DNA from: a virus
Direction: 5' to 3' (one strand)
Length of the DNA: 36,585 bases
Virus record (IMG/VR): IMGVR_UViG_3300031885_000058
Span: 1-36,585 of that record
Shown: positions 6,749 to 8,630 of the stretch, in pieces
How positions within the stretch are numbered: the first letter of the stretch is position 1
How the letters are laid out: each line of letters opens with the position of its first letter
Made by a program: the position numbers and the translations under genes
Notes under the pieces: generated by a model
Database searches by the model: none
Seen by the model: the letters and a program-made list of their open reading frames with translations, nothing else
What the model was told of the DNA's origin: nothing

Positions 6749-6943
6749 TTATTTTGAGGGGCTTTCCTGGTCTCGAATTTCGTCCTCCAAAAGGCTCGCT
6801 AATTTCTCTCTTGCCGCCGCCTCGATGAATTTTGACATCGACAAATGATGATGAATGCACCACATGCGAAGATCGGCCTGAAAATCCTTGTCTAGACGAA
6901 TTGTGGTGAGGATAAATAGTGCCTTCGATTTGTCTCCTATCAT
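6749..6943 (-). CDS. Ribbon-helix-helix DNA-binding regulator
   Basis: 64 residues. TTIRLDKDF (13-21) forms the beta-strand, helix A covers about 19-32 and helix B about 35-50 (SMSKFIEAAAREKLASLL), as in Arc/CopG-type regulators, which bind DNA as dimers through the paired strands. The C-terminus is acidic. It has its own promoter (7001-6974) and AAAGGA before the ATG. It is encoded at the leftward exit of the main non-coding region, which carries tandem repeats and dyads it could bind, so autoregulation is likely. Confidence 0.75.
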   Translation of the reverse strand: MIGDKSKALFILTTIRLDKDFQADLRMWCIHHHLSMSKFIEAAAREKLASLLEDEIRDQESPSK

Positions 6944-6973
6944 GGGGATCCTTTCGCCGCGCAGATGAATGAT

Positions 6974-7001
6974 AGAATAATAGAGATATGGCGGAAGTCA
7001 A
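6974..7001 (-). promoter_or_regulatory. Promoter of the ribbon-helix-helix gene
   Basis: On the minus strand TTGACT (7001-6996), 16 bases, TATTCT (6979-6974). The predicted start is about 25 bases before the ATG at 6943. Confidence 0.65.
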
Positions 7002-7198
7002 TAAAGGCTATAGGGCTATTCCGAAACGGAGGCAGGGCGGGGCTAAATAAGGGTAAGTGGTGCTAGGATACGTCTCGGCTCGCGAGATTGCGAATTAGGG
7101 ACACATTCTGCATCCTATATGTCATAACGATACCAGAAGCACCAGTATCGATAGGTCAAATGCAAATAATAAACACTTCTGATAACAACCGAGCATGG

Positions 7199-7245
7199 GG
7201 TGTCCGGAGGTGTCCGGAGGTGTCCGGAGGTGTCTGGAGGTGTCT
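7199..7245. repeat. Phased 10-bp tandem repeats
   Basis: Three exact copies of GGTGTCCGGA, a fourth with one change (GGTGTCTGGA), and a partial fifth (GGTGTCT). The period is close to one DNA turn, so a bound protein would line up on one face. Possible iterons, or sites for the ribbon-helix-helix protein encoded next door. Confidence 0.85.
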
Positions 7246-7251
7246 GCCACT

Positions 7252-7265
7252 TTTACGGACGTAAA
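7252..7265. promoter_or_regulatory. Perfect dyad TTTACG-GA-CGTAAA
   Basis: Six-base perfect arms around two bases, six bases after the 10-bp repeat array. A likely dimer-binding operator. Confidence 0.5.
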
Positions 7266-7305
7266 CATGGAAGTTAGCACACTTCTGCGGAGATAACACA
7301 AACGC

Positions 7306-7325
7306 GTACACTACATGACGTGTAC
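7306..7325. promoter_or_regulatory. Dyad GTACAC-N8-GTGTAC
   Basis: Perfect six-base arms separated by eight bases, directly before an AT-rich run. Candidate operator. Confidence 0.45.
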
Positions 7326-7390
7326 AGTTGATATATATACGGTTTTGCGTATGAATCCCAAACCATGTAACACGTTGCGCGTTATCCTAC

Positions 7391-7403
7391 TAGCATAATG
7401 CTA
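7391..7403. promoter_or_regulatory. Dyad TAGCAT-A-ATGCTA
   Basis: A perfect 13-base palindrome around a central A, about 60 bases left of the opposed promoters, in the 5' part of the predicted leftward transcript. Candidate operator. Confidence 0.45.
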
Positions 7404-7460
7404 CAAGAATAATCCCGCTCTACTTTTACGCGGGTTCTCGCGCAATACCGGAGCAGGCCC

Positions 7461-7489
7461 TTGACACTTCGGGGCGCAATTGGTATATT
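7461..7489 (+). promoter_or_regulatory. Near-consensus sigma-70 promoter, plus strand
   Basis: TTGACA (7461-7466), exactly 17 bases, TATATT (7484-7489). The predicted start is near 7496. It is the only strong plus-strand promoter I found, although all genes are on the minus strand, so it probably makes a non-coding or antisense RNA. Confidence 0.75.
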
Positions 7490-7517
7490 ATATCCCTATT
7501 GCCCGCCTTTCTGTCAA
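7487..7517 (-). promoter_or_regulatory. Opposed minus-strand promoter sharing the -10 region
   Basis: TTGACA (7517-7512), 19 bases, TATAAT (7492-7487) on the minus strand. Both hexamers are perfect, but the spacer is two bases longer than ideal. Its -10 overlaps that of the plus-strand promoter, so polymerase can occupy only one of them at a time. It would drive the early genes leftward. Confidence 0.6.
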
Positions 7518-7559
7518 CCCCGTGTCCAATGTCGCCACGCAATGGTGCTATTGTCACCA

Positions 7560-7601
7560 CCAAATGACGAGAGAGGTTGTCATTTGGGCCGACCAAATGA
7601 C
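7560..7601. repeat. Three 9-bp repeats forming two alternative hairpins
   Basis: CCAAATGAC at 7560-7568, its complement GTCATTTGG at 7579-7587, and CCAAATGAC at 7593-7601. The central copy can pair with either outer copy but not both. The two outer copies extend to a 13-base direct repeat (ACCAAATGACGAG) 33 bases apart. It can act as operators in DNA or as a switch in RNA. A relic of a mobile-element end with multiple short repeats is another possibility. Confidence 0.75.
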
Positions 7602-7603
7602 GA

Positions 7604-7627
7604 GCCGCCCCCGTGGTGGCGGGCGGC
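7604..7627. other. GC-rich hairpin after the switch repeats
   Basis: GCCGCCC (7604-7610) pairs with GGGCGGC (7621-7627) around a 10-base loop. It begins three bases after the third 9-bp repeat. There is no T-run on either strand, so termination is uncertain. Confidence 0.55.
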
Positions 7628-7716
7628 AAGTTGGATGCACAGAGCAGAACTCTGGCATAACTCCTTCTACACATGGTAGGCGAGCTAATCCTGGCTGGCT
7701 CGTTCGGTCCATTTAA

Positions 7717-7732
7717 TCCCGCGATAACGGGA
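7717..7732 (-). terminator. Weak terminator-like hairpin after the late genes
   Basis: On the minus strand TCCCG, six-base loop, CGGGA followed by TTAAAT, about 95 bases after the stop of the metallophosphoesterase gene. The short stem and interrupted T-run make it a weak call. Confidence 0.3.
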
Positions 7733-7760
7733 ACCAGGGTACTGCGTCAATCTACTACGA

Positions 7761-7786
7761 CAACTTGCGCCAACAACTTGCGCCAA
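7761..7786. repeat. 13-bp tandem duplication
   Basis: CAACTTGCGCCAA occurs twice with no spacer (7761-7773, 7774-7786). It lies between the end of the late genes and the switch region. Confidence 0.8.
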
Positions 7787-7826
7787 TGCAGGATATGAGA
7801 CTTGGTTACTGTATCACTCCGCCAAA

Positions 7827-8630
7827 TCACTGACTGACATGAATATCGTGTCTGAGTCCATCTAACCTGATTCTCGGACACCCCGTATGGCTTGGCGGTA
7901 ATCCCATCTGTTCTGCATATGACCCGTCCCAGTTCAGGAATGAGCCAGAGTCAATCAAGAACACTTTGTCGACCTTTAGGATAGACTTGCCCTCTTTCGT
8001 GGCGTGGAGACGATAGCGGTCAATCGGGGCCGCAGCTTCAAGATGATTGTGCGCCCCGACAAGAAAGTCCGCTCCCTCAAACAGGTCTGTCAACTTGTAG
8101 ACCCGATTCAACTTTCCTCCCGGGGTGGAGCCTCCGCCAGTGGTGTGATGGAAATAGCCTTGGTAGGATATCCTGGTCCCCACCCATTCTCGTTCCCCAT
8201 TCTTACGGACGTTCTTGCGGGCGTTATGCCCGACCCCGATATGCAGCACGGCGGAGAAGCCACAGTAGGGAACCCCCAAGTCATCGCACAAATCCTCAAT
8301 CAAGTCACAGTCGGCATACTTGACGAGTCGGGCCTCGTGATTGCCGAGAATCATGCCAAGAATCAAATCCTTGACCGGCCGCAACCTATCTCTGAGGTAT
8401 TTCTTTGCATCTCTGAGACCCATTGTGGCCCCAAAGGGAGAGGATACCCCACCGATGACCACTGTGTCGAATAGGTCGCCCATGCCGAAGATGTACGCCT
8501 TCTCTTCTTTTGCCCATTTCAGGTAGCCCTCAAACTTGGTCAAATCCGACTGCGGACTGCCCGCATGAAGATCGCCCAGGGGCAACAAGTAACAAGCATT
8601 TCGCTTGTCCTCTATTTCAACGAGTCTCAT
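7827..8630 (-). CDS. Metallophosphoesterase (calcineurin-like)
   Basis: 267 residues. The metal-binding motifs occur in order: GDLH at 19-22, GMGD at 49-52, GNHE at 96-99, a His pair in YFHHTTGGG near 155, and GAHNH near 195. This is the complete set for a dimetal calcineurin-like phosphoesterase, so it is probably active. The substrate is unknown; phage members include nucleases and nucleotide phosphatases. The ATG overlaps the zincin stop (ATGA) with AAAGGTGA upstream. It is the last gene of the late series. Confidence 0.85.
   Translation of the reverse strand: MRLVEIEDKRNACYLLPLGDLHAGSPQSDLTKFEGYLKWAKEEKAYIFGMGDLFDTVVIGGVSSPFGATMGLRDAKKYLRDRLRPVKDLILGMILGNHEARLVKYADCDLIEDLCDDLGVPYCGFSAVLHIGVGHNARKNVRKNGEREWVGTRISYQGYFHHTTGGGSTPGGKLNRVYKLTDLFEGADFLVGAHNHLEAAAPIDRYRLHATKEGKSILKVDKVFLIDSGSFLNWDGSYAEQMGLPPSHTGCPRIRLDGLRHDIHVSQ

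Follow-up and report, generated by a model that had tools for sequence, protein, structure and literature searches.

A symmetric promoter dyad, probably read in both directions, in the noncoding control region of a phage with its recognised genes on one strand

Introduction

Transcription attenuators work through mutually exclusive hairpins, and countertranscribed RNAs are the antisense controls of plasmids and phages. In bidirectional promoters (Warman et al. 2021; Middlemiss et al. 2023, PMC10268837), one A/T-rich core provides the -10 element of both strands. In bacteria, the two starts of such promoters lie 7-25 bp apart, 18 bp being the commonest distance, and the noncoding divergent RNA runs antisense to its neighbours; the -35 element is poorly conserved, the promoters lie between divergent genes, and evolution is presumed to erase such symmetry (PMC10268837).

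A sequence with much of this layout is described here from a virus record of 36,585 bases, the whole of which was analysed and is referred to below as the window. Like the reported bidirectional promoters, it has a single A/T-rich core that can supply the -10 of either strand, two predicted starts separated by 16-18 bp, and a divergent noncoding RNA that would be antisense to its neighbours. Unlike them, it has a full TTGACA as -35 on both sides, keeps its 57-bp layout between phages, and lies between gene blocks of the same strand (PMC10268837). The relatives used for comparison (L numbers) are viral contigs carrying homologues of the exonuclease gene that flanks the locus; L012 and L013 are the same as L032 and L040, respectively.

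Results

All the proteins of the window that matched a family were encoded on the minus strand and no plus-strand gene was recognised, in agreement with the all-minus-strand genome of the preliminary description. The right side carries methyltransferase, terminase, portal, capsid and tail genes, and the left side the replication-side genes, among them one that encodes an O-like replication protein and itself contains iterons. A gap of about 880 bp without any recognised gene (6944-7826), flanked on the right by an exonuclease/phosphoesterase-like gene (7827-8630, minus strand), encloses the promoter dyad and a group of hairpin repeats, and places the dyad in a noncoding control region between the exonuclease-side and replication-side blocks. 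Another promoter-like site, TTGACT-16-TATTCT (7001-6974), lies nearer the replication-side genes. The iterons are 24-bp tandem repeats (2119-2194) in the style of a lambda-type origin. Tandem GGACACCTCC-type decamers in the gap (7199-7244, minus strand), with similar arrays in the corresponding region of L046 and L038, were dropped as a candidate replication origin, the lambda-O-like iterons being those of the replication gene; they are possibly a protein-binding array serving partition or regulation.

The dyad reads TTGACA-17-TATATTATATC-17-TGTCAA and covers 57 bp (7461-7517, both strands). Rightward, a -35 TTGACA (7461-7466, plus strand) is followed after a spacer of 17 by a -10 TATATT (7484-7489, plus strand) preceded by TGG, as in an extended -10, the hexamers and spacer being exactly those of the preliminary description; from the position of the -10, an RNA would start at 7496-7498 on the plus strand. 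Leftward, a second TTGACA (7512-7517, minus strand) mirrors the first around base 7489, the centre of symmetry, and is followed after a spacer of 19 by TATAAT (7487-7492, minus strand), which overlaps the plus-strand -10 and would start an RNA at about 7480, 16-18 bp from the predicted rightward start. A single near-palindromic -10 core serves the two TTGACA hexamers. This core holds, in the window and in L040, a reciprocal register, TATTAT on the plus strand (7486-7491) and TATAAT on the minus strand (7492-7487), to which the 17-spaced TATATT is an alternative, and the reciprocal -11A/-7T coincidence of bidirectional promoters is present in both phages; a predicted start distance of 18 bp follows from this reciprocal overlap.

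Scored with a general, approximate sigma70 matrix that was not trained on the host of this phage, the rightward site reached 16.9, the best value on the plus strand of the record, and the leftward TTGACA-19-TATAAT reached 14.9, the best on the minus strand; the best plus-strand and minus-strand sites of the 36.6-kb record coincide at the dyad. When the record was shuffled 200 times with its dinucleotides preserved, no shuffle reached 16.8, and none matched either strand's best score or the two-strand pair (0/200). The rightward site agrees with sigma70 promoters at 11 of 12 letters plus the extended TG, with a TTGACA, a spacer within 17 +/- 1 and a TATAAT-like -10, and is both above chance and conserved. 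Outside the hexamers, the inner symmetry of the dyad was strong in the window and in L033 (0/5000 shuffles).

Viral contigs were the only source of relatives of the exonuclease gene; a scan of one-per-species genomes with the exonuclease alignment and a scan of genome contigs with a conserved control-region 22-mer recovered none. Samples of two of the relatives came from permafrost mineral soils of Utqiagvik, in the Arctic (PMC9387269). Among these diverged phages, in which the neighbouring protein is 65-87% identical, TTGAYA-45-TGTCAA, always of 57 bp, was present 3' of the exonuclease gene in four distinct relatives (L032, L033, L039 and L040), the core being A/T-rich at 9-10 of 11 bases in every dyad. 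When up to one mismatch was allowed, the 57-bp layout was unique to this syntenic spot within about 496 kb of loci, besides two loci fetched by pattern. These two are unrelated viral contigs, retrieved with the same TTGACA...TATAATAT...TGTCAA layout of 57 bp (L016:9452-9508 and L015:8846-8902), which could be additional symmetric promoters or coincidences in A/T-rich sequence.

In the direction of the window's plus strand, all five dyad-bearing phages have the exact TTGACA followed after 17 bases by a hexamer with 4 to 5 of the 6 TATAAT letters (TATATT in the window; TATAAA, TATATC, TATAAA and GATATT in the relatives), and the dyad is the best site of that strand in each noncoding region. Read the other way, the dyads have a poor -10 at a spacing of 17; at a spacing of 19 the -10 is TATAAT in the window and L040, and weak in L033 and L039. 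Because the opposite-direction -10 is poor or weak in several relatives, the rightward reading is, on sequence comparison, the better kept direction, which supports the plus-strand promoter proposed earlier; that promoter is not a lone one, however, since the second TTGACA (7517-7512) faces it on the minus strand.

The dyad is not essential to the group, since L035 and L038 have retained TTGACA and its flank and lost the -10, and L034 and L046 are without the dyad. Neither are the dyad cases fully independent, because L033, L039 and L040 share part of the dyad region by common descent. The left half of the L039 dyad is non-homologous, coming from the end of an endonuclease VII-like gene whose stop codon it overlaps, so that the symmetry in L039 may be chance. 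The predicted rightward promoter faces the structured RNA described below in L033 and L040, and the endonuclease VII-like gene in L039; among the relatives it appears to be the position of the promoter that is kept, not its product. Free-standing endonuclease VII-like (HNH-type) genes lie 3' of the exonuclease gene in L033, L039, L013 and L035, with their own TTGCAT-16-TGG-TATAAT promoters and inserted at varied spots of the noncoding region; in L039 one of them separates the structured RNA from the dyad. A gene that looks ParA-like from its sequence, downstream of the L013 control region (L013:8981-9739), would suggest a plasmid-like state.

To the right of the dyad, the minus strand carries module A (UGGUUC-variable hairpin-GAUUAAAUGG...CCAGCCAGG, 7684-7745), which is common to seven other sequences of the group and precedes a GC hairpin (7604-7627, minus strand). 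By eye, the latter is replaced in most relatives by another hairpin in about the same position (AAGCCGTC...GGGCGGCTT in L032, GACCGTC...GGGCGGTC in L035); the counterpart found in L034 and L038 is a GC hairpin followed by GGGGGTCTTTT, a proper U-tract terminator on the gene strand. The GC hairpin is best read as belonging to the putative 3' end of the minus-strand operon that lies upstream, and not as part of a rightward RNA. Module A occurs twice in L038 and L034, the second copy just ahead of a terminator. On the other side of the dyad, downstream of the leftward promoter, a hairpin CCTGCTC...GAGCGGG (7413-7457, minus strand) is placed similarly to CGTTCCA...AACCTTAGTATTCATGGAGCAGAACG of the relatives, as seen by eye and from local blastn matches.

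Directly 3' of the exonuclease gene, a structured RNA of 145 nt with strong covariation was recognised in six distinct phages, on the plus strand of each contig (L033:4841-4992, L034:4902-5049, L038:1976-2122, L039:4853-4996, L046:4856-5001 and, for L040, L013:7250-7395). Its 34 pairs are paired in 98% of cells, and changes on both sides were observed in 23 of the 34, where shuffles gave 9.5 and slid controls 1-5. Since G-U pairs (12) exceed A-C pairs (2), the RNA was assigned to the gene strand. Its model, R1, had no match in the window, from which the RNA is absent, and the L013 copy had none in Rfam at E values up to 2. Overall, Rfam searches at gathering and relaxed thresholds gave nothing convincing, the best weak match being Mahella-1 (21.4 bits against the 70.7 needed). 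The structured RNA of the relatives is apparently new to description.

Downstream of the rightward promoter, a short inverted repeat GGTGCTATTGTCACC (7544-7558, both strands; GGTGATGTTATCACC in L032) stands just before the first of three plus-strand repeats. Repeat 1, CCAAATGAC (7560-7568), lies within a 13-bp direct repeat ACCAAATGACGAG (7559-7571), and repeat 3, again CCAAATGAC (7593-7601), within its second copy (7592-7604); the inverted repeat 2, GTCATTTGG (7579-7587), can pair with either of them. The resulting hairpins 1-2 (-15.0 kcal/mol, z -5.4) and 2-3 (-14.8 kcal/mol, z -4.6) are of near-equal energy and, as had been noticed before, mutually exclusive, since both use repeat 2. Folding of 7496-7606 gave a z of -4.3 for the plus strand and -3.7 for the minus strand, and the small hairpins reached about -15 kcal/mol on the plus strand against -11 to -12 on the minus strand, a gain accounted for by plus-strand G-U pairs.

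The switch that had been proposed from these three repeats was not borne out by the relatives: L032 has a single copy, the motif CCAAATGAC was absent from all the others, and neither the arrangement nor covariation in its support was found. In the L032 stretch, CACCAAATGACGAGCC, the single copy shares its left flank with copy 1 and its right flank with copy 3, as expected if the window had duplicated a 33-bp unit or L032 had lost one via recombination between the 13-bp direct repeats; repeat 3 with GAGCC is a 14-nt exact match to this copy. Because the single copy joins these two flanks, the middle arm is dispensable. The CCAAATGAC motif may be functional; an alternative-fold switch is not conserved. 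Ten CCAAATGAC-gap-GTCATTTGG matches in viral contigs were rejected as unrelated, two of them being terminator-like hairpins at gene ends. Like attenuators, the locus has two competing hairpins of equal stability 3' of a promoter; unlike them, it has no U-tract terminator, no downstream gene on the same strand and no conserved arrangement. No plus-strand terminator-like site was found from 7496 to 8592, in either fold, no plus-strand gene was recognised downstream, and folding was similar on both strands, so that the attenuator suggested in the preliminary description is not supported.

Discussion

We consider it probable that the dyad is a symmetric two-way sigma70 promoter in the control region of this phage. 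RNA polymerase would be able to engage the common -10 core facing either way, with a separate consensus -35 for each direction. Transcription to the left, from about 7480, would yield a leader for the replication-side genes, and the rightward RNA, starting at about 7496-7498, would be a noncoding antisense of the minus-strand operon upstream, opposite its structured 3' end, with the CCAAATGAC hairpins folding near the 5' end of this RNA and not acting as a conserved switch. Rightward transcription would meet the right-hand transcripts head-on, and might either damp read-through or be a mere result of the symmetry; any effect may lie in the RNA itself or in the act of transcription.

A promoter working in one direction only, whichever that is, with a coincidental or regulatory mirror and a far-side TGTCAA that belongs to a separate downstream element, seems unlikely to us. 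It would suit L035 and L038, which keep TGTCAAGTCGTTGCATCAATA on the gene strand and must do so for another reason, since both the -10 and the other half are absent, as well as L039, whose left half has a different origin; yet the exact 57-bp spacing recurs in five phages and, apart from the loci fetched by pattern, nowhere else, and hexamer and spacing persist in the window and L032 although their TGTCAA flanks differ from those of the L040 group. The rightward promoter may possibly produce a small antisense RNA. That this would be a dedicated antisense RNA with the alternative CCAAATGAC hairpins as its switch is quite unlikely, even if the plus-strand promoter is the better conserved reading and the hairpins are equal in energy, exclusive and stronger on the plus strand (z -4.3 for 7496-7606): good folding is seen on the minus strand of this stretch too (z -3.7), the triple repeat is reduced to one copy in L032 and to none in the others, a plus-strand terminator is absent nearby, and the sequence 3' of the promoter is different in every relative. 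We are likewise doubtful that the rightward RNA is an antisense of conserved position which pairs with the structured 3' end of the exonuclease operon (formed by the structured RNA in relatives and by the module in the window), and that such pairing sets a switch between the gene blocks. Like countertranscribed RNAs, the locus combines an opposite-strand promoter, a structured noncoding region and adjacent replication-side genes; unlike them, it shows no conserved antisense product, loop-loop targets or terminator, and its opposite strand varies among the relatives.

The symmetric block and the CCAAATGAC repeats could be operators for a dimeric DNA-binding protein, such as the ribbon-helix-helix-like product of 6749-6943, given that inverted and direct short repeats stand beside the promoter and that this 64-aa reading frame, next to the gap, matches the ribbon-helix-helix family PF01402; the match is weak, however (E 0.034, below the Pfam cut-off), the related loci have no relative of the frame and conserve the dyad nonetheless, and polymerase offers the simpler explanation for a site of 57 bp that is bounded by promoter hexamers, all of which makes operators improbable. 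The relic of a mobile-element end that the preliminary description had put forward, along with a blastn check, is hardly credible: its short repeats do lie close together, but blastn of the region against phage and plasmid collections gave no match even at relaxed settings, no transposase was present among the scanned proteins, neither terminal repeats beside a transposase nor dispersed copies were found, and the 57-bp layout holds a fixed, syntenic position in the relatives.

The control region of these phages is unstudied, and the same spot bears structured RNA modules without Rfam relatives. Bidirectional promoters are usually viewed as weak and tolerated by-products of -10 symmetry. If the two-way reading of the dyad is true, its two consensus -35 elements and fixed 57 bp would mean that two-way initiation itself has seemingly been selected.
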